Of a stretch of DNA of 64,000 nucleotides, positions 26,405 through 35,980 are shown piece by piece. The notes under the pieces were generated by a model. The model made no database searches. It was not told where the DNA came from and saw only the letters and a list, made by a program, of their open reading frames with translations. Origin of the DNA: Pseudothioclava nitratireducens (GTDB lineage: Bacteria; Pseudomonadota; Alphaproteobacteria; Rhodobacterales; Rhodobacteraceae). Where the stretch lies: NCBI RefSeq assembly GCF_029210495.1, contig NZ_JARGDK010000005.1, forward strand, positions 186,001 through 250,000, read 5' to 3'. The number at the start of each line of letters is the position of its first letter. The stretch's first letter is position 1. A program made the translations under genes and the position numbers.

Positions 26405-28666
26405 ATGGCGATCAAGCGGCTTTTGAAACCTTTGGGATCGAGGCGAAAGCAACCGGAGGCGGGCCAACCCGTGCAGGATCTGCTACAACAGGATATCGCT
26501 GCGATCCGCGAGCGCTTTGATACCGCGTTTTATCTGAAGCGCTATCCCGATGTCGGGGCCGCGGGGATCGACCCGATCGAGCACTATTGCCGCGATGGCT
26601 GGCGCGAATTCCGTGATCCGGCCATGGATTTCTCGACGCAATATTACCTGCGCGCCAACCCGGATGTGGCGCAATCGGGCGTGAACCCCTACGCGCATTT
26701 CATCCTTCAGGGCGAGGCCGAGGGCCGCAAGGCGATGGCTCCTCTGGTCGAGACCGATGAAGAACGCACCGCGCGGTTGCGTCTGGAGCACGAGAAGTCG
26801 GTGATCGCCGAGGCCTTCAACGCGGAGTTCTACGTTCAGCGCTACGAGGATATTGCCCAGCTTGGCGTCGATCCGCTGGATCACTATTGCCGCGATGGCT
26901 GGCGCGAGGGGCGCGACCCGAACGATCGGTTCTCGACGGCCTATTATCTTTACGCCCATCCCGATGTCGAGGCCGCGGGGATCAACCCGTTCTGGCATTA
27001 CATCATGACCGGCGAAAGCGAAGGGCGTGCCTGCATGCCCGAGAATGACGACTGGATGGCGATCCCCGAGGACCCGCGCGCGGCGGCGGAGCGGGCGCTG
27101 GTTGCCGAGCATTTCGACGCGGATTTCTATCTGTTGCACTACCCGCAGGTCGCCGAGGCCGGGGTCGACCCGGTGGATCACTACCTGAAATTCGGGGCGG
27201 CGGAGGGTCATGACCCGAGCCCGGATTTCTCGACGCGCTATTACCTTGAGATGAACCCGGATCTGGCCGGTTCGGGGGTCAACCCGTTCTGGCATTACCT
27301 GTCGAGCGGCAAGGCGGAGGGCCGCGACCCGCGTCATCCGGGCGGCTATCGGGTTGAGGAACTGATCGCGCTGGAGCCGTTGGAGCGCAATGTGAAGCGT
27401 TGGCGGCGCAAGATGGCGCCGCGCAAACTCTTGGACGGTGAAGCGCTGGTGGCGGCGATCCTCGGCGATGCCGAGGGGGCCGAGCTGATCTTCTCGCTCG
27501 GGCATGACCAGTATCGGCAGGTCAGCGGCGGCGTGCAACTGTGCATCCAGCGCGAAGAGACACTCGCAGTCGAGGCGGGGGGGATCTATCTCAACCTGCA
27601 TCCGTGGCAACCGCTGCCGCGCCTCGCCCATGCCGAGGAAGACCCGGACCCGGTGATGGTTCTGGTGCGCAACGGCACCGAGATCGGCAAGGCGCGCATG
27701 TCGGACCTGATCGCCGCGACCGGGGCGCTGCGGACCCGGATCGCCGGGACGAAAGTGGTGGTGCATCATCTGCTGGGGCACCTGCCCGAACAGGTCGCCG
27801 AACTGATTGCCGCCGCCGGAGAGCGTGCGTGCTGGCTCTGGCTGCATGACTTCTTTTCGATCTGCCCGAGCTACACGCTTCAGCGCAACACGGTAAGCTA
27901 TTGCGGCGCGCCGGATGTCAGCTCGAATGCCTGCACGCTGTGCCGTTTCGGGGTCGAGCGCGCGGCGCATCTTGCGCGGATGAAGCGGTTCTTTGACGCG
28001 GTGCAGGTGCATGTTCTGTCGCCCTCCGAGGTGACGGCGGAGCTATGGCAGGCGCGTTCGGGGCTGCGGGCGGCGAGCCTTGAGGTGGTGCCGCATATGG
28101 CGCTGCGCTGGAGCAAACGTGCAGAGCCTTTGCCCGAGGACAAGACACCGATCACGATCGGTTTTCTCGGCACGCCCGCGCCGCATAAGGGCTGGAACGT
28201 GTTCGCGCGGCTGGTGCGCTCTCTCGCGGCCAGCCCGACCTATCGTTTCGTCTATCTGGGCCAGCGCGAGATGCCGATTTCCGGGGTCGAACATGTCGAT
28301 GTGCATGTGACCGCCGATACGCCCGATGCGATGATCGACGCGGTGCGCCAGGCCGGGGTCGATCTGGTGCTGCATTGGGCGTCGTGGCCCGAGACCTTCT
28401 CGCTCTCGACCTACGAGGCGTTTGCGGGTGGGGCCTATGTGCTGACCAACCCAATCTCGGGCAATGTCGCGGCAACGGTGGCGCGGCTCAAACGCGGGGC
28501 GATCCTTGAGGATGAGGCTGCGCTGCATGACTTCGTGACCGGCGCGAAGGGCGCGAAACTCGTCGAGAAGCTGCGCCGTGAGCGGGCGGAGAAGGCGGTG
28601 AAACACACGCTGAGCGGGATGGGGTTCGAGGTCTGGGGCCGCAAGAAGAAGGGGCGCAAAGCATGA
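26405..28666 (+). CDS. Glycosyltransferase with six N-terminal FDxxFYL repeats (753 aa)
   Basis: Residues 38-309 hold six ~35-residue repeats arranged as three alternating pairs: FDTAFYLKRYPDV...GIDPIEHY, then FSTQYYLRANPDV...GVNPYAHF, and so on. Each ends in a G-x-x-EGR-like turn. The C-terminal part has GT-B/GT4-like features: FLGTPAPHKGWNVFARL near residue 583 and WPETFSLSTYEAFAGG near residue 670, where a Glu binds the donor. A middle region includes WLWLHDFFSICPSY and a Cys group (YCGAPDVSSNACTLCRFG). No signal peptide. It overlaps the next gene by ATGA. It probably builds a surface glycan; the repeats may bind the acceptor or partner proteins. Confidence 0.85.
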   Translation: MAIKRLLKPLGSRRKQPEAGQPVQDLLQQDIAAIRERFDTAFYLKRYPDVGAAGIDPIEHYCRDGWREFRDPAMDFSTQYYLRANPDVAQSGVNPYAHFILQGEAEGRKAMAPLVETDEERTARLRLEHEKSVIAEAFNAEFYVQRYEDIAQLGVDPLDHYCRDGWREGRDPNDRFSTAYYLYAHPDVEAAGINPFWHYIMTGESEGRACMPENDDWMAIPEDPRAAAERALVAEHFDADFYLLHYPQVAEAGVDPVDHYLKFGAAEGHDPSPDFSTRYYLEMNPDLAGSGVNPFWHYLSSGKAEGRDPRHPGGYRVEELIALEPLERNVKRWRRKMAPRKLLDGEALVAAILGDAEGAELIFSLGHDQYRQVSGGVQLCIQREETLAVEAGGIYLNLHPWQPLPRLAHAEEDPDPVMVLVRNGTEIGKARMSDLIAATGALRTRIAGTKVVVHHLLGHLPEQVAELIAAAGERACWLWLHDFFSICPSYTLQRNTVSYCGAPDVSSNACTLCRFGVERAAHLARMKRFFDAVQVHVLSPSEVTAELWQARSGLRAASLEVVPHMALRWSKRAEPLPEDKTPITIGFLGTPAPHKGWNVFARLVRSLAASPTYRFVYLGQREMPISGVEHVDVHVTADTPDAMIDAVRQAGVDLVLHWASWPETFSLSTYEAFAGGAYVLTNPISGNVAATVARLKRGAILEDEAALHDFVTGAKGAKLVEKLRRERAEKAVKHTLSGMGFEVWGRKKKGRKA
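26516..27331 (+). repeat. Six tandem repeat units encoded in the glycosyltransferase gene
   Basis: Protein repeats at about residues 38-72, 75-109, 138-172, 175-210, 237-271 and 274-309. Odd units begin FD/FN-x-FY(L/V) and even units begin FST-x-YYL. Both contain a (N/Y)PDV-like core, G(I/V)(D/N)P and HY. The nucleotide sequence is less repetitive than the protein. Confidence 0.85.
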
Positions 28667-29736
28667 GCGTTCACGCATTCACGAGCTGCTCTTACAGCTA
28701 TCTCAACCGCGCGCGGGTTCTGGCCTCGACGCTGCGCCGCCAGCATCCGGACTGGGTGATCTGGCTGGTGATGACCGACAAGGAGCCCAAGAAGTTCCGC
28801 TTCGATCTTGAGACGGAGGATTTCGACCGGATCGTCACCGCCGAAGACCTGTTCAGCACCGAGACCGATCAATGGCTCTTTGGGCATGATATCGTCGAAG
28901 CCTGCACCGCCGTGAAAGGGCGCGCCTGCACGCATATCCTGAGTGACCCCGATTGCGAGAAGCTGGTCTATTTCGATCCCGATATCGCGGTGTTCAACCC
29001 GATGACCGAGGTGATCGACCTGCTCGACGACTATTCGATCGTGCTCACCCCGCACCAGACCGAGCCCGACGCCAAGGCCGACAAGCGGGCGATCCGCGAC
29101 AATGAGATCACCTCGCTCGATTACGGGGTGTTCAACCTCGGCTTCGTGGCGATGGCGAATGACGATGAGGGGCAGCGCTTTGCGCAATGGTGGGACGACC
29201 GGCTACATGACTGGTGCCATGACCGGCTCGATATCGGGCTGTTCGTGGACCAGAAATGGTGCAACCTGGTGCCGTGCTTTTTCGACCGGGTGAAGGTGCT
29301 GCGCGACCCCGGCTATAACGTGGCAAGCTGGAACCTGAGCCAGCGGGTGATGCGCTATGACGAAACCGGCACCGCGCTGATCAACGACCGCCCGCTGCGG
29401 TTCTATCATTTCACCAAGCTCGGACCGGTGGGCGATGTGATGACCCAGCGCTTCGCGCGCGACAATGTCGAGATTTACGAGCTGTGGTGGTGGTATCGAA
29501 ATGCAGTCGAGGCGGCCTCGACCAGCGATATTCCCAAGGGCTGGTGGTATTACGGGACCTTCTCGAATGGCGAGAAAATCCCCAAACCCGTGCGTGAGAT
29601 GTACCGCGCGCGCGGCGATCTGCGGGCGGCCTTCCCGAACCCGCGCAAGGCGGGCAAGCGGTCGTTCTACACCTGGCTGGTGGAGAATACCGACATGATC
29701 TCCAACCCGCAGCATCGTGGGTTCGAGGCGGTCTGA
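28663..29736 (+). CDS. GT8-like putative glycosyltransferase (357 aa)
   Basis: GT-A-type fold is suggested by the opening VHAFTSCSYSYLNRARVLA, the metal-binding DxD in LVYFDPDIAVFNPM near residue 105, and SLDYGVFNLGFVAM near residue 150 with a later FVDQKWCNLVPCFF. This is the order seen in GT8-like and related enzymes. The ATG overlaps the upstream stop (ATGA), so it is translated with the repeat-bearing glycosyltransferase. The donor sugar is unknown. The gene is followed by a lower-G+C segment with a separate sulfotransferase. Confidence 0.8.
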   Translation: MSVHAFTSCSYSYLNRARVLASTLRRQHPDWVIWLVMTDKEPKKFRFDLETEDFDRIVTAEDLFSTETDQWLFGHDIVEACTAVKGRACTHILSDPDCEKLVYFDPDIAVFNPMTEVIDLLDDYSIVLTPHQTEPDAKADKRAIRDNEITSLDYGVFNLGFVAMANDDEGQRFAQWWDDRLHDWCHDRLDIGLFVDQKWCNLVPCFFDRVKVLRDPGYNVASWNLSQRVMRYDETGTALINDRPLRFYHFTKLGPVGDVMTQRFARDNVEIYELWWWYRNAVEAASTSDIPKGWWYYGTFSNGEKIPKPVREMYRARGDLRAAFPNPRKAGKRSFYTWLVENTDMISNPQHRGFEAV

Positions 29737-29781: not shown

Positions 29782-29853
29782 TCTAGAGTACAACTTGCGC
29801 AACTTGGATGATGCTGTTCATGTTGACGCAACCCGAATAATGGATTGAAGCAA

Positions 29854-30405
29854 ATGACGCAATCGAGTGAACAGTCCAAAGTTTTTGTGCTGGGCGATTC
29901 CCGAACTGGAACGACTTCGTTGCACAAGTTCTTCAGGGACGCTGGCTATAATTCGATTCATTACTTCATCGATGAGGTCAATGAGATTGCCCGTGCGCGT
30001 GGCGTCGAAGGTCATGACTTCGAAAGCGTGCAGGAGTTCATCGAGAACGCAGGCTTCAACGCATTCTCCGATTATCCCGTCAGGTCCTACTTCCGGGACC
30101 TGCTCGCACACTATCCTTCGGCACATTTCATCCTTTCGACGCGCAAGGATGTCGAGGCATGGGCCGCTTCGATGAAACGCTTCTTCGCGGATCGCGAAGA
30201 CGTCGTGAGCCGGCTGGACTATCTGAAGAAGGTCTATCTGAGAATTAACGACGAAATCCGTGAGACCTATAAAGACGCGGAAAACTTCATCGAGCTTTGC
30301 ATCGACGATGATGGCGATGAGAACAGCGCGAAACTCCGGGAATTTCTGGGCGCGCCGAGCCATGTCTCGCTGAAGCAGTTGAATGCGACCGTCACGAAGT
30401 CCTGA
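29854..30405 (+). CDS. Sulfotransferase-like protein, lower G+C (183 aa)
   Basis: The N-terminal VFVLGDSRTGTTSLHKFF matches the PAPS-binding loop of sulfotransferases, and FILSTRKDVEAWAASMKRFF near residue 95 matches the 3'-phosphate motif region (Arg, Ser). At 183 aa it is shorter than most (~230-300 aa), resembling compact members of sulfotransferase family 2/17-like proteins. Base composition and codon use are visibly more AT-rich than both neighbours, suggesting recent acquisition. ATG 29854 follows GGATTGAAG; a TTG nine bases upstream is an alternative. It is followed by a short orphan reading frame that looks like the tail of a displaced gene. Confidence 0.75.
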   Translation: MTQSSEQSKVFVLGDSRTGTTSLHKFFRDAGYNSIHYFIDEVNEIARARGVEGHDFESVQEFIENAGFNAFSDYPVRSYFRDLLAHYPSAHFILSTRKDVEAWAASMKRFFADREDVVSRLDYLKKVYLRINDEIRETYKDAENFIELCIDDDGDENSAKLREFLGAPSHVSLKQLNATVTKS

Positions 30406-30501: not shown

Positions 30502-31311
30502 ATGGTGCGAAAGGGGAATACCTTGCAGATCATGGATTGGGTGAAGAAGCCCTCGGAACACGAGACCAAAATCTCGGCCCATTTCAACGGCAAGGTGCGC
30601 TATGACGGGGCGCCGATCTTCGACAAGCCCTTCGTCGCGCTGCTGTTCACCAATCGCTGCGGGTCGAACCTGTTCGCCGAGTATCTGGTGAATACCGGCT
30701 ATATCGGCGGCATGGGCGAGGCGACGAACTTCCCCGGCGTGATCCGCCGCAGCACGAAATTCGGGATCGACAACTACGCCGGTTTCGTGCGCCACGAGGC
30801 CGAGGCCGTGCTGGCGAAGGGACGGCATTTCGGGATGAAGGTTGCGGTCAACCAGCTTGCCATGCTGCTGCGTTGGAACATCCTTGGCATGTTCCCGGGG
30901 ATGGTCGTGTATCACGTGGTGCGCGATGACCTGCTGGGTCAGGCGATCTCGATGTCGATTGCGAAACAGACCGGGCAGTGGACCTCCAAGCAGGAGGCGA
31001 AGCCCGCCGATCCCGAATTCCAGTTCAATCTGATCTCGCAGATCGTCGAGCGCACGGCGCTGAACAACGCAAGCGGGCGGCTTTTGGTGGAATCGATCGG
31101 CGCGCCCTATCGGCAATTCCGCTACGAGGAATTCACCGCCAATCCCGAGCCGCATATCCGTGACGCGCTGGGCATGATCGGTATCGCACCCGAGACGCTG
31201 AAACTACCGGAAGCGACGCTGAAAAAGCAGGCGAACGCGCTGAACGACTCATTCCGGGCGAAGTTCCTCGGGCATCTGGTCAGCCAAGGCACGTTGCGCG
31301 GTCAGCCCTGA
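30502..31311 (+). CDS. Stf0-type sulfotransferase (269 aa)
   Basis: Predicted cytoplasmic sulfotransferase of the Stf0 group, whose known members sulfate trehalose or glycans. FVALLFTNRCGSNLFAEYL near residue 45 is the PAPS-binding region; HVVRDDLLGQAISMSIAKQT near residue 138 carries the Arg and Ser of the 3'-phosphate site and the Q-x-x-S-x-x-x-A pattern typical of Stf0 proteins. Three starts are possible: ATG 30502, TTG 30523 (8 bases after GGGG) and ATG 30532. The longest is given. It is the third sulfotransferase-like gene in the window and lies next to the glycosyltransferases. Confidence 0.83.
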   Translation: MVRKGNTLQIMDWVKKPSEHETKISAHFNGKVRYDGAPIFDKPFVALLFTNRCGSNLFAEYLVNTGYIGGMGEATNFPGVIRRSTKFGIDNYAGFVRHEAEAVLAKGRHFGMKVAVNQLAMLLRWNILGMFPGMVVYHVVRDDLLGQAISMSIAKQTGQWTSKQEAKPADPEFQFNLISQIVERTALNNASGRLLVESIGAPYRQFRYEEFTANPEPHIRDALGMIGIAPETLKLPEATLKKQANALNDSFRAKFLGHLVSQGTLRGQP

Positions 31312-31403: not shown

Positions 31404-31703
31404 TCAAAGCGTGTAGGCGGGGATTGGGATGGGGCCGTCCTCGTCGATGTGCAGCGAGGTCGGGAACAGGGTCTCGGGCGGAGCGTGGGGGCCGTGCGGG
31501 ACGATGAGCGTCAGCACGATCTCACCATTGCTGCGGGTGACGTCCGAAGCGATCCAGATGGTGTCCAGCGTTTCAGCGTAGAGGATCTCGCCCTCGGCGA
31601 GCGTTGAGAAGTCATGCGTCTCGCTGTTGAGGATCAGCGTGTCGCCCTGACGCTCGATGGTCAGTTGGCGGTCGAGGCGGGCGGGGGTCAGGTGGATGAT
31701 CAT
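31404..31703 (-). CDS. Small protein paired with DUF2793 gene (99 aa)
   Basis: No family recognised. The sequence opens MIIHLTPARLDRQLTIERQG and reads as a beta-rich single domain with alternating hydrophobic residues, ending PIPIPAYTL. There is no signal peptide or membrane segment. GAGG seven bases before the ATG is a good ribosome-binding site. It starts 9 bases after the DUF2793 gene and is surely cotranscribed. From that pairing I infer a structural partner of the DUF2793 protein, possibly like the small head-spike partner of gene transfer agents. Confidence 0.7.
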   Translation of the reverse strand: MIIHLTPARLDRQLTIERQGDTLILNSETHDFSTLAEGEILYAETLDTIWIASDVTRSNGEIVLTLIVPHGPHAPPETLFPTSLHIDEDGPIPIPAYTL

Positions 31704-31712
31704 GGCGTGTCC

Positions 31713-32831
31713 TCAGAACCAGCGGCCGATTGCGGTCAGGCCGATTTCGAACGTGTCGGCATCGGGCGCGCTGCCGAGCCGGACGAGATGAAGCTGATAG
31801 AGCGTCAGCGCGTTCGCGCGCCCGATACTCGGCATGTTGCGGCGGCGCTCGGGATTGGCGCCGAGGCCGCTGGGCGGAATGCCCCGCCCCTGCACGACCG
31901 GCGTGTTGGCAAAGGCCGCCGGGAAGGTCCAGTGCACATCCGGTGCGGTGCGGTAGGGGTTGTCCCATGTGCCGCCGCCCGCCGCCACGATGGAGCCAAG
32001 CGGGATCGCATGGGTGCAAATCTGCGTCCCGTCCGCAAAGCGCACATATTCGCCATTCGCATTCGAGCCGCGCTCGATCACCGCGCCGGAGGGCGTGTTG
32101 CCCGACATCGTCACCGGACCGAGAATATTGCCGCGGCTATAGCCGAAATCGGCGCGCATCAGGCGACCCGGTGTGGCGTCGGTCGCGGATTGCTGGACGC
32201 TTTCCCCCGAAACGGCGGCTGTATTCGCATCAAAGGCCAGCGCCGTGCGCCATGTCGTGCCATCACCGCTGAGCTTGAGCGCGAAATCATCGGTGCCCGC
32301 AGTGCCGAGTTCAGCCCGGCCCGACCAGCCGGTTTGATACAGCAGGCTCGCCGTATCGCCCTCGGTCGCCTTGTTGAGCTTGAGCTGATGACCCGCGCCG
32401 GCATGATTGAGCAGCGTGGCATCCGCCGAAACCGCCAGCCGGTTGGTGGCATCAGCCTCGGCTGAGACACCCAGCGTTGCCGGGCGCAGATCGAGGGGTT
32501 GCCAGGCCGTGCCATCGAAGCGGAGGCTGCGCCCCTCGGGCTGCACATCGGCGATCCAGCCTGCGGCGGGCGTCACGAAATCCCAGTTCACCCCGCTCCA
32601 CACGGCGATATCGCCATCATGCCCGGCCCATTCGCCGCTCGCCCCGGCACCCAGAATATAGCGGTCCCCCAGTTCAGGGGCTGCCGGGGGGATCACGATA
32701 CCCAGATCAAGCACCGTCAGTTGGCACACCGCATCGAGAAGCCGCAGGGCCTCGTTATGGGTGACGTGTTTCTGGGCTTGGGACGGCAGGATGAGGGGTA
32801 GCCCGAGGATCGGTGTCTGATCGCTCCACAT
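31713..32831 (-). CDS. DUF2793 protein, gene-transfer-agent spike/tail-fibre-like (372 aa)
   Basis: The N-terminal ~90 residues carry the DUF2793 signature: LPLILPSQAQKHVTHNEALR, ELGDRYILGAGASGEWAGHD and a W-x-F-x-TP-x-AGW segment. The C-terminal part is beta-rich with a phage tail-fibre-like region (RFADGTQICTHAIPLGS, then YRTAPDVHWTFPAAF), a pattern often seen in fibre tips. I recall DUF2793 proteins being linked to Rhodobacter GTA head spikes that bind capsule; this is from memory. No other phage or GTA structural genes lie nearby, so it would be an unlinked accessory locus. Confidence 0.78.
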   Translation of the reverse strand: MWSDQTPILGLPLILPSQAQKHVTHNEALRLLDAVCQLTVLDLGIVIPPAAPELGDRYILGAGASGEWAGHDGDIAVWSGVNWDFVTPAAGWIADVQPEGRSLRFDGTAWQPLDLRPATLGVSAEADATNRLAVSADATLLNHAGAGHQLKLNKATEGDTASLLYQTGWSGRAELGTAGTDDFALKLSGDGTTWRTALAFDANTAAVSGESVQQSATDATPGRLMRADFGYSRGNILGPVTMSGNTPSGAVIERGSNANGEYVRFADGTQICTHAIPLGSIVAAGGGTWDNPYRTAPDVHWTFPAAFANTPVVQGRGIPPSGLGANPERRRNMPSIGRANALTLYQLHLVRLGSAPDADTFEIGLTAIGRWF

Positions 32832-32945
32832 GGTGTTTCCTTTACGACGCGAGAATGATTCCGCGACGATCCTGCGGGAAGCGGGCTATGGAATGGGAAA
32901 CGCCCCGAGCGGGGCGTTAACCAGGTGTTCACGGTGATTTCGCGC

Positions 32946-33377
32946 TTAGCGGACCACGTAGACCGAGATTTTGGCATGGCGCACCACCCGCGCCGCATTC
33001 GGCCCCAAGAGATAGTCCTTGAGATCGGGTCGATGCGCGCCCAGAACGATCAGGTCGGCCCCGTCTTTTTCCGCCATTTCAAGGATTTCGTGATAGGCGT
33101 TTCCGACGCCGACGACATGGCGCACGGCCTTGTTCGCGTCTTCGCCCAGCGCCTCCCCCACCATCTTGGCGAGCAATTCACGCGCATGGCTGAGCGCGGT
33201 TTTCTGGTGGCTCTCCTTGAAGAACCCCCCCACGACGCTCATTCCGAAGTCGGGAATCACGGTAATGACGTCAAGCTGCGCCCCTTCCGCTTCGGCCAGA
33301 CGCTGCGCGGTTTGCAGCACCTTGGTCTCGGCACCGGGTCGGTTGATATCGACGGCACAGAGGATGGTCTTGATCAT
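32946..33377 (-). CDS. Universal stress protein, TRAP-associated (TeaD-like)
   Basis: UspA-fold protein of 143 aa, cytoplasmic. It begins IKTILCAVDINRPG with the conserved Asp of the ATP-binding fold and has VIPDFGMSVVGGFF and LIVLGAHRPDLKDYLLGPNA near the C-terminus, a variant of the G-x2-G-x9-G nucleotide loop. Its ATG overlaps the stop of the TRAP permease (ATGA). Usp proteins placed like this, for example TeaD, are known to modulate TRAP transport activity, which is the most likely role here. Confidence 0.9.
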   Translation of the reverse strand: MIKTILCAVDINRPGAETKVLQTAQRLAEAEGAQLDVITVIPDFGMSVVGGFFKESHQKTALSHARELLAKMVGEALGEDANKAVRHVVGVGNAYHEILEMAEKDGADLIVLGAHRPDLKDYLLGPNAARVVRHAKISVYVVR

Positions 33378-35980
33378 GCCGGTTCTCCTTCGATGATCGC
33401 CGCGCGGCGGCGTTGCAGCACAGTCACCAGACCGAGCAGCAAGAGGGCGGGAATGAAGATCAGCTCCTTCGGAAGCTGGTTCGTCGGCGCCTGCACCGAA
33501 GTGATCGACACCGGCGCATCGCCATAGAAGTCGAAGCTGGCCAGTTGCTCGGAAAGCGGCGAGCCGAACATCGGTTCTTCGAGCACCATCATCTCGCCCT
33601 CAGGCAGGAGCGACAGGCCCAGCGCGTCCAGACGCGTCGCCGCGTCCGCCCCCTCGGGCACGTTGAGCACGAGCGTCAGATCCTTCATTTCGAGCGTGTC
33701 GAAATCCGGTCCCGAAACGACTGTGCGCAGCGACGAGCCGACAGGTGCCTCCATCAAGGCCTGCTCGAACTCGACCGGCGCGATCTGATGATAGGGCGGC
33801 TGGATCATGTCCATGAAGAAGCCCGGCCGGAACAGCGCGAAGGCCACAAGCAGGAGTGCCACCGTCTCCCAGATGCGGGACTTGGTGAAGTAGAAGCCCA
33901 TGGTCGCCGCGGTGAAGACCAAAATCCCGATCGTGGCGATGATGAAGACGATGATGCCTTGCATCCACGTCACGTCGATCAGCAGAAGGTCCGTATTGAA
34001 GATGAACACGAAGGGCAGCGCCACGGTGCGCAGGCTGTAGAAGAACGCGGTGAAACCCGTACGGATCGCGTCGCCCCCTGACACGGCGGCTGCCGCGAAA
34101 GAGGCAAGCCCCACAGGCGGCGTCACATCGGCCATGATCCCGAAGTAGAACACGAAGAGGTGCACCGCGATGAGCGGCACCACGAGGCCCGACTGCGCAC
34201 CAAGCTCCACGACGACCGCCACCATGAGCGAGCTGACCACGATGTAGTTTGCCGTGGTCGGCAGACCCATCCCGAGGATCAGCGACAGGATCGCCACGAA
34301 GATCAGCATCAGGATCAGGTTGCCGCCCGACAGGAACTCGACGAAATCGGCCATCACCTGCCCGATACCAGTCAGCGACACGGTGCCCACGATGATCCCT
34401 GCGGTCGCCGTGGCGAGGCCAATCCCGATCATGTTGCGCGCGCCGTCGATCATCCCTTCGATCAGGTCGACCATGCCCTCGCGCAGCTTCGAGATCGCGT
34501 TCGGCTCACCCCGGAAGAACGCCTTGAGGGTCTTTTGCGTGATCAGGATGAAGAACAGAAGGAAGGTCGCCCAGAAAGCCGACAGACCCGGCGATTTGCG
34601 TTCGATCATCAAGAAGTAGACCAGAACGATGATCGGCAGCAGGTAGTAGAGCCCCGCCTTGTAGATTTTCGGGATCTCGGGGAGTTCGACGACCTCTGCA
34701 TTCGGGTCGTCGGGTTCAAGGTCCTCGGCTTGCGCGGCCAGCCAGACGAGCGCGATATAGGCGAGGCCCACCATCGCCGACAGCACCCAGCCCGCGCCCT
34801 CGGGGACGAGCGAGACAATCGCGCGCACCGGGAACTGGGTCGCGTAGCACAACCCCGCAAAGCCCGCGAAGAACAGGAACATGCCAAGGATCGTGCGCCA
34901 CATGGATACGACCTTGTTTCCGAGCGTCGGCATCTTGTTCTTCACCGCTTCGAGGTGAACGATATAGACGAGCGCGATGTAGGAAATGATCGCGGGCAGG
35001 AAGGCATGGGTGATGACCTCGAAGTAGGAAATCCCCACATATTCCACCATGAGGAAGGCGGCGGCCCCCATCACCGGCGGCATGATCTGACCGTTGACCG
35101 AGGAGGCGACCTCGACCGAGCCGGCCTTTTCTGCGGAGAAGCCCACCCGCTTCATCAGCGGAATGGTGAAGGTGCCGGTGGTGACCACGTTGGCGATGGA
35201 CGAGCCGGAGATCAGGCCGGTCGCGGCGGAGCCGACGACAGCCGCCTTGGCGGGCCCGCCCCGCAGGTGCCCAAGCGCCCCGAAGGCCATCTTGATGAAG
35301 TAGTTCCCCGCGCCCGCCTTATCGAGCAGCGCGCCGAAGAGCACGAAGAGGAAGACGAATTTCGTGGACACGCCCAGCGCGATGCCGAACACGCCTTCGG
35401 AGGTGATCCACATATGGCTCATCGCCTTGCGCAGGCTCGCGCCGGCCCAGCGGATCTGGTCGGGCACTGCGGCGGCGGAACCGAAGAACACATAGGCAAG
35501 GAAGATCAGCGCCAGCACCACCATGACCGGGCCAAGCGTGCGGTAGGCCGCGATGAACAGGAAGGCGAGGCCAAGCAGCGAGAAGAGCGCATCGCTTTGG
35601 TCCGCCAGACCGCCATTGGTCACGATCTTGTCGTAGAACACGTATCCATAGAGCGCGAGAAACGCGCCGCCCAGCGCCAGCACCCAGTCATACCACGGCA
35701 CGCTGTGCTTGGGCGCGGATTTGAACAGCGGATAGGCCATGGCCGAAAGGAACACGGCAAAGGCGAGGTGGATCTGCCGCGAGTTGTTGATCAGATCGCC
35801 CGGCAAGACATAAGGCGCGACGGGTGAGGCCAGAAGCACCTGAAAGACGGACCAGAGCAGGGCCACCCCTGCGATAAAGAACCCCAATGAGCCGGGAACG
35901 ACGCGAGCACCGCTATCGGATGCGGCCACGAGTTCCTGAAGCTCGGCTTCGTTCAATGCGCGTTTCTCACTGTCGGACAT
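33374..35980 (-). CDS. TRAP transporter fused permease (DctQM type) with C-terminal DUF3394-like domain (868 aa)
   Basis: Inner-membrane permease of a TAXI-type tripartite transporter driven by an ion gradient. The first ~200 residues contain the small DctQ-like helices, followed by the DctM-like core with GSAATGLISGSSIANVVTTG and QIMPPVMGAAAFLMVEYVGI and a second VGTVSLTGIGQ segment. After the last core helices, a soluble segment (from about IQPPYHQIAPVEFEQA) and a terminal helix resemble DUF3394. GGAGGGACA precedes the ATG. It is read after the binding-protein gene, with a strong stem-loop between them. The substrate is unknown. Confidence 0.93.
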   Translation of the reverse strand: MSDSEKRALNEAELQELVAASDSGARVVPGSLGFFIAGVALLWSVFQVLLASPVAPYVLPGDLINNSRQIHLAFAVFLSAMAYPLFKSAPKHSVPWYDWVLALGGAFLALYGYVFYDKIVTNGGLADQSDALFSLLGLAFLFIAAYRTLGPVMVVLALIFLAYVFFGSAAAVPDQIRWAGASLRKAMSHMWITSEGVFGIALGVSTKFVFLFVLFGALLDKAGAGNYFIKMAFGALGHLRGGPAKAAVVGSAATGLISGSSIANVVTTGTFTIPLMKRVGFSAEKAGSVEVASSVNGQIMPPVMGAAAFLMVEYVGISYFEVITHAFLPAIISYIALVYIVHLEAVKNKMPTLGNKVVSMWRTILGMFLFFAGFAGLCYATQFPVRAIVSLVPEGAGWVLSAMVGLAYIALVWLAAQAEDLEPDDPNAEVVELPEIPKIYKAGLYYLLPIIVLVYFLMIERKSPGLSAFWATFLLFFILITQKTLKAFFRGEPNAISKLREGMVDLIEGMIDGARNMIGIGLATATAGIIVGTVSLTGIGQVMADFVEFLSGGNLILMLIFVAILSLILGMGLPTTANYIVVSSLMVAVVVELGAQSGLVVPLIAVHLFVFYFGIMADVTPPVGLASFAAAAVSGGDAIRTGFTAFFYSLRTVALPFVFIFNTDLLLIDVTWMQGIIVFIIATIGILVFTAATMGFYFTKSRIWETVALLLVAFALFRPGFFMDMIQPPYHQIAPVEFEQALMEAPVGSSLRTVVSGPDFDTLEMKDLTLVLNVPEGADAATRLDALGLSLLPEGEMMVLEEPMFGSPLSEQLASFDFYGDAPVSITSVQAPTNQLPKELIFIPALLLLGLVTVLQRRRAAIIEGEPA

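Follow-up and report, generated by a model that had tools for sequence, protein, structure and literature searches.

Tail fibres of RcGTA, the gene transfer agent (GTA) of Rhodobacter capsulatus, sit at the tip of the baseplate, on the protein called megatron (PMC7296036; PMC13420450). Passages of PMC7296036 describe the tail fibre Rcc00171 over residues 1–371 as a rod, a knob, and a foot, and rcc00171 carries an N-terminal DUF2793 domain according to a passage in PMC8265664. DUF2793 is equated with the tail fibre in the relevant section of PMC10883770, which reports it in 225 of 293 genomes, co-evolving with GTA genes. RcGTA also has head spikes, each with a pentameric base (Rcc01079) and a fibre (Rcc01080), as set out in part of PMC7296036. 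Sections of PMC10218006 state that the tail fibre binds capsule and that, in R. capsulatus, genes for the capsule lie next to those for the head spikes.

We analysed a stretch of 64,000 nucleotides from Pseudothioclava nitratireducens (contig NZ_JARGDK010000005.1, positions 186,001 to 250,000; hereafter the window), in which two intact reading frames lie 9 nt apart on the minus strand. One encodes a 372-aa protein (31713..32831), and the other, starting 9 nt past its stop, encodes a 99-aa protein (31404..31703). A first-pass annotation, made from the letters alone, had described a DUF2793 protein with a fibre-like C terminus and a 99-aa partner, and the reading frames and homology searches confirm this description. 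The DUF2793 profile (PF10983) passes its cut-off at residues 25–111 of the 372-aa protein (32499..32759, minus strand; E 3.9e-29), the sole PF10983 match of the genome (a 3.0-Mb assembly of 44 contigs). This N-terminal anchor, which is expected to bind megatron, matches chains S and T of the phage R4C baseplate (PDB 8gtc) by sequence and by Foldseek. It is followed by a middle region at residues 112–230 (32142..32498, minus strand), whose boundaries we drew from alignments and which we call the knob by analogy with Rcc00171 (PMC7296036, in part); up to about residue 210, the knob is conserved in alignments of detached GTA fibres. The remaining residues, 231–372 (31716..32141, minus strand; the boundary is our choice), form the foot, a predicted receptor-binding end that is related to Pseudomonas phage tail fibres and to the side fibre of the F2 pyocin (25ve; chain E 2.4e-8). 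The 372-aa protein also matches phrog_2712, "tail fiber protein" (E 7e-30), and the 99-aa protein matches phrog_2398, whose annotation names no function (E 1.2e-23). A structural model of the fibre has a mean pLDDT of 67.2 and is confident only in the N-terminal region and part of the middle region, with the foot poorly modelled; its best Foldseek matches are the R4C baseplate fibre chains T and S of 8gtc (E 2.0e-4 and 4.3e-4).

Aligned with the one DUF2793 protein that R. capsulatus DSM 1710 encodes (371 aa counted from the MADQ start), our stand-in for Rcc00171 of strain SB1003, the 372-aa protein matches end to end, with 214 of 365 positions identical (63/109, 79/117, and 72/139 by region). 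DUF2793 genes are found in phages as well: RcSimone-Hastad, RcCronus, and RDJL Phi 1 each have one after a megatron-type gene (annotated only as a hydrolase in RcCronus). Among the best 80 of at least 591 DUF2793 loci in viral contigs, 76 have a megatron-like match upstream, and 74 of these matches end no more than 600 nt before the fibre start. Because DUF2793 fibres serve phages too, assignment of the pair to a GTA rests on the absence of a second megatron match in the genome. On the strength of these homologies, we suggest that the 372-aa protein is most likely the cell-gripping tail fibre of a GTA and not a head spike.

A search for the GTA structural cluster, which the first-pass annotation had proposed, found an RcGTA-like cluster split over two contigs, neither of which is the contig of the fibre pair. 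The end of contig C1 carries frames that we read as genes for the large terminase, portal, protease, capsid, small head and tail proteins, hub (g13), and peptidase (g14); capsid and hub were named by PF05065 and PDB matches, and the others by gene order, our own interpretation, and similarity to the GTA locus of R. capsulatus. Contig C14 (5068 bp) carries megatron (g15) and then a gene that we read as a putative serine acetyltransferase, with no fibre gene behind megatron. Against PDB chains, megatron scores 1901.6 bits with 6tba_8A, capsid 711.9 bits with 6tb9 (Rcc01687), and hub 441.3 bits with 6tba_7A, and their identities to the R. capsulatus DSM 1710 proteins are 65.0%, 82.5%, and 67.9%, respectively. 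Genome-wide, there is one match to PF13547 (GTA_TIM; megatron) and one to PF05065 (capsid), both inside this cluster. The cluster is apparently complete, and the pair is, as had been proposed, encoded away from it.

We consider it very probable that the genome's own RcGTA-type GTA has the 372-aa protein as its tail fibre, with a megatron-docking end, a knob, and a glycan-binding foot, and that the 99-aa protein is the cognate partner of this foot. The reading is based on homology, single copy, detached location, the presence of a GTA cluster, and the coupling of foot and partner in viral contigs; from these we infer docking, glycan binding, co-expression with the GTA, and the role of the partner. 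The N-terminal DUF2793 region would dock on the baseplate protein megatron, the knob would follow this anchor, and the C-terminal foot would bind a glycan of the recipient cell and so position the particle for DNA delivery. The second gene would supply the cognate foot partner, which would have moved with the foot between phages and GTAs. Judged by homology, then, the pair is a GTA tail fibre with its foot partner, a variant of a known part.

To see how such fibres are distributed, we used a set of 101 genomes (our own and 100 relatives). Of these, 52 have DUF2793 and 55 have megatron; 46 have both, 6 have DUF2793 only, and 9 have megatron only (Fisher odds ratio 34, p 3e-13, uncorrected for kinship). 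There are 69 DUF2793 hits, 33 of which lie no more than 6 kb downstream of a same-strand megatron match and 36 of which do not, a detached class in which contig ends may make a megatron-linked fibre gene seem detached. A quick tree of the N-terminal region (81 rows) places 30 of 37 detached fibres and two viral rows in one group, at an SH-aLRT of 85, below star level; one fibre of this group (L069, genome G045) comes from a genome with no megatron match. The window fibre groups with four Rhodobacter fibres (SH-aLRT 92), and the fibre of its genus mate G001 is placed elsewhere. Core GTA proteins of our genome are mostly nearer to G001 than to R. capsulatus DSM 1710 (hub, 73.6% versus 67.9%; megatron, 67.5% versus 65.0%), with g14 the exception (68.1% versus 73.2%). 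For the fibre, in contrast, the N-terminal part has a higher identity to R. capsulatus (59.8%) than to G001 (53.8%). Detached fibres have the DUF2793 domain and mostly the middle region in common, and their C-terminal ends are many and different. Compared by eye, detached DUF2793 fibres of about 570–600 aa (L052, L055, L067, L069, and L078) have mutually similar C-terminal halves, seemingly a second recurrent foot type. Genus mate G001 has three megatron matches (contigs C2 and C25), two of them followed by DUF2793 genes and perhaps belonging to prophages, in addition to its own detached fibre. Megatron matches with in-frame stops (G004:C1:1275219-1276109 and G018:C1:1292170-1293066) possibly represent decayed GTA or prophage clusters.

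The first-pass annotation had proposed another part of the particle: a GTA head-spike locus, encoding the base and the fibre of capsid spikes that bind capsule. A detached, receptor-binding GTA part in a genome with a GTA cluster is what we find, so that the GTA idea was right and the part was wrong: the match to an Rcc00171-type protein is end to end, DUF2793 is carried by Rcc00171, and the 99-aa protein is unlike Rcc01079. DUF2793 content had been ascribed to head-spike proteins, and its published carrier is the tail fibre (passages of PMC8265664 and PMC10883770). We reached the Rcc01079 sequence through RcapNL gp29, and BLASTP gave no alignment between Rcc01079 and the 99-aa protein, a comparison that had been suggested for the base protein. 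As far as this base protein is concerned, the outcome is the lack of similarity that the annotation had itself named as refuting its head-spike reading. At E 0.001, Rcc01079 has no relative in our genome or in genus mate G001 (4 of 12 genomes searched were positive); R. capsulatus SP108 served as the positive control (86% identity). RcapNL gp08 as a spike-base query matched no RcGTA chain, whereas gp29 did match one, and a pattern search for the published head-fibre N terminus returned no match, even in R. capsulatus, and is therefore uninformative. Spike-base relatives are patchy (L170–L174), and of two R. capsulatus strains one has a copy 86% identical and the other a copy only 40% identical. 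The two-gene layout does recall rcc01079/80, and the pair lies near sugar-modifying genes much as the R. capsulatus head-spike genes adjoin capsule genes (stated in part of PMC10218006). We nevertheless reject a head-spike locus as extremely improbable, since DUF2793 belongs to the tail fibre and sits behind megatron in phages, since the 99-aa protein is unlike Rcc01079, and since the gene order is reversed: in RcapNL, the spike base gp29 is followed by gp30, which starts with a glycine-leucine motif, and here the fibre is followed by the small protein. A different origin is suggested by viral contig L255, where a megatron-like gene, a DUF2793-knob-foot fibre, and the partner gene follow one another in that order. 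The pair might thus be the tail-fibre cassette, remnant or still useful, of a lost prophage with an RcGTA-like baseplate, unused by the GTA. This we regard as quite unlikely: no further phage gene was identified among the scanned neighbours of the pair, the genome has one megatron and one match of the searched capsid family, both frames are intact, and the closest relatives in the quick tree are detached Rhodobacter fibres.

With the 372-aa protein read as the tail fibre of the resident GTA, the viral relatives of the second gene bear on the 99-aa protein. Among the best 80 of 184 viral-contig loci with 99-aa relatives, 78 have an upstream frame; the same foot is directly upstream in 72 of these 78, and none carries DUF2793 there. 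In the reverse direction, among the best 80 of 332 viral foot loci, 78 have room downstream and 74 of the 78 have the partner gene there; near-copies were kept in both counts, and some contigs are common to both sets. Given this near-constant coupling, we take the 99-aa protein to be a partner dedicated to this foot, most probably either a small assembly factor or a tip subunit. The partner gene stands behind the GTA fibre gene in our genome, in G001, G026, G031, G038, and G046 (the same genome as Sinirhodobacter ferrireducens, judged by coordinates), and in S. hankyongi. Of 10 genomes searched with a profile, 5 gave no partner match: those of R. viridis, R. aestuarii, Rhodobacter sp. TJ_12, and two strains of R. 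capsulatus, which make up 5 of the 8 named Rhodobacter/Sinirhodobacter genomes searched. Their fibres (L159, L160, L161, L163, and L165) carry a foot of the window type, so not every GTA requires the partner, and the lineage to which the model GTA belongs may have lost it. R. maris has two partner relatives on contigs other than that of its fibre, and G051 has four, none adjoining its DUF2793 gene. Instead of acting as an assembly chaperone, the partner could be a structural subunit of the tip or a cofactor in receptor binding, a possibility that we put somewhat below an even chance. Its model is a compact, confidently predicted, strand-rich fold (pLDDT 93.8), which together with the near-constant coupling to one foot type would suit such a role; neither sequence searches nor Foldseek against the PDB at E ≤ 0.001 found a solved relative that would give a structural hint of it, and the two R. 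capsulatus genomes have no partner match. The top VIA-align match of the model (SPP1 gene 22 product, Z 3.0) is too weak for use. The phrog_2398 family may be needed to make or complete fibres of this kind.

We turn to the surroundings of the pair. One flank holds a Usp protein and a TRAP transporter, and the other holds two sulfotransferases: a convergent Stf0-type enzyme (30502..31311, plus strand; PF09037, 5e-9) and a sulfotransferase-domain protein (Sulfotransfer_4; 29845..30405, plus strand; PF17784, 1.9e-19). These identified neighbours agree with the earlier description of an isolated two-gene unit without phage genes. The same description had placed the pair near glycan and luxRI genes; luxR and luxI do lie at about 23.2–25.4 kb, ~6–8 kb away, and the glycan part is fair for the two sulfotransferases, the ORFs at 26405–28666 and 28663–29736 having no Pfam match at 1e-5. 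The former encodes 753 aa with repeated FDxxFYLxxYPD / NPFWHY motifs and has relatives near fibre genes in L055, L077, and L163 (in L055, L075, and L076 in an earlier, smaller set). The idea of a conserved location for the fibre gene was rejected, this ORF being the only one among 12 window neighbours to match at other loci of the early set. The proposed tie between quorum sensing and capsule is sound for RcGTA, whose tail fibre and head-spike fibre bind a quorum-controlled capsule (a section of PMC10218006).

When the genes around detached fibre genes were clustered, many appeared to be sugar-nucleotide or glycosyltransferase genes (names by our own reading). For example, a nucleotidyl transferase gene and a family-2 glycosyltransferase gene adjoin the fibre gene in both R. 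viridis and Rhodobacter sp. TJ_12, an RmlD gene lies near it in R. capsulatus DSM 1710, and a polysaccharide pyruvyl transferase gene lies near it in G001. When ten seed proteins were searched with own-locus hits excluded, 16 of 28 detached fibre loci were hit versus 4 of 40 random stretches (p 3.8e-5), or 11/23 versus 4/40 (p 0.0015) when a single locus stood for the five of Rhodobacter and another for the two of Sinirhodobacter; the test was not blind, as the idea was formed on the same loci. We chose the seeds ourselves (Ugd from L073 and the other nine from the 28 loci), and hits between loci of one genus were kept. No seed was hit at the window locus or at 11 other fibre loci. To arrive at the 28 loci, we took the 30 detached fibres of a single tree group and dropped L054 and L058, whose contigs are short. 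Other detached hits were left out for want of a clean frame (L051), as lying outside the tree group (L061, L072–L074, L078, L079, and L166), as absent from the tree (L080–L083), or as a second R. capsulatus (L160). Of 42 control stretches drawn, 40 were obtained, 32 from genomes of the 28 loci and 8 from G002, G003, G035, G049 (twice), G058 (twice), and G294; among the genomes of the 28 loci, G021, G026, G038, G040, G043, and G056 have no control.

We also tallied Pfam families in the four nearest genes of the 28 fibre loci and of 28 of the 40 controls (109 of 134 listed fibre-side genes and 112 of 140 control genes), counting control families below the 25 listed as 1. NTP_transferase (10 versus at most 1), RmlD (8 versus at most 1), Epimerase (9 versus at most 1), Glycos_transf_2 (9 versus 3), and Glyco_trans_1_4 (4 versus 2) were all more frequent on the fibre side; single-family Fisher p values for seven families range from 0.005 to 0.12, uncorrected, and YjbH (one match) and acyltransferase-3 (two matches) also turned up in the control stretches. 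Gene calling followed a GC-frame rule and produced at least one antisense artefact (window 32925–33524, plus strand). RTX calcium-binding proteins (PF00353) account for 6 of the 109 nearest genes versus at most 1 of 112 control genes (p 0.06).

The nearness of detached GTA fibre genes to surface-polysaccharide genes, as if key and lock travel together, looks new; we found no statement of a tail-fibre/polysaccharide linkage across genera in the open-licence papers searched, and an earlier report may exist. The window itself supports the linkage weakly, through its two sulfotransferases. Possibly, the surface sugars made by fibre-adjoining genes are those that the fibre grips. We put at just under an even chance the wider idea that detached fibre genes are kept in or beside islands that make the bound polysaccharide, the key being inherited and exchanged with the lock and the foot and partner cassette being swapped in from phages. 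A cell that makes GTA particles dies in the process, so for the system to persist the particles must reach kin. If the idea is true, GTA host range would be tied to capsule type, and the linkage would amount to kin recognition for a suicidal gene-sharing system. Receptor specificity via surface polysaccharide has been proposed as a limiter of GTA delivery (a passage in PMC10883770), a proposal that a linkage across many genera would make directly testable. We therefore regard the linkage of fibre and surface-sugar genes as a lead worth following.

Upstream of the fibre gene lies a putative CtrA-like site, TGAA-N7-TTAA (32917..32931, minus strand; 86–100 nt before the fibre start), with one mismatch to TTAA-N7-TTAA, which we took to be the CtrA consensus for scoring. 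In 9 of 38 detached fibre genes (39 tried), a site with two mismatches or fewer begins inside the same 25-nt span (−116 to −92), a clustering that 0 of 300 simulations equalled under either null (maxima 6 and 7). For megatron-linked fibre genes, the best 25-nt span holds 1 of 19 (21 tried). The R. capsulatus DSM 1710 fibre gene has no CtrA-like site by the same measure; according to part of PMC9638019, the promoters of the detached RcGTA loci, among them that of rcc00171, contain putative CtrA half-sites. CtrA-type control of detached fibre genes is suggestive only.

Several known systems resemble the pair in part. The RcGTA head spike (Rcc01079/Rcc01080) is likewise a detached two-gene receptor-binding locus, but the spike sits on the capsid and its base has no detectable similarity to the 99-aa protein. 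The baseplate fibre of roseophage vB_DshS-R4C (chains S/T, 8gtc) shares the DUF2793 region, over residues 6–127 of the 372-aa protein (E 4.8e-17), but is a 230-aa chain of a phage particle. With the F2-pyocin side fibre 25ve, a Pseudomonas tailocin component, the match is restricted to the foot (residues 222–324, E 2.4e-8). In Pseudomonas phage F10 (gp025/gp026; NC_007805), a foot-bearing tail fibre is directly followed by a relative of the 99-aa protein, but F10 is an ordinary phage and its fibre has 200 aa and no DUF2793 match. The RcGTA tail fibre Rcc00171, compared through strain DSM 1710, has the DUF2793 N terminus, nearly the same length (371 versus 372 aa), full-length homology including the foot, and a gene detached from the cluster. 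It differs in the 99-aa partner, which stands behind the fibre here and is found in neither of the two R. capsulatus genomes searched; that a near-constant companion of the foot in the best viral matches should have no match in these genomes looks new.
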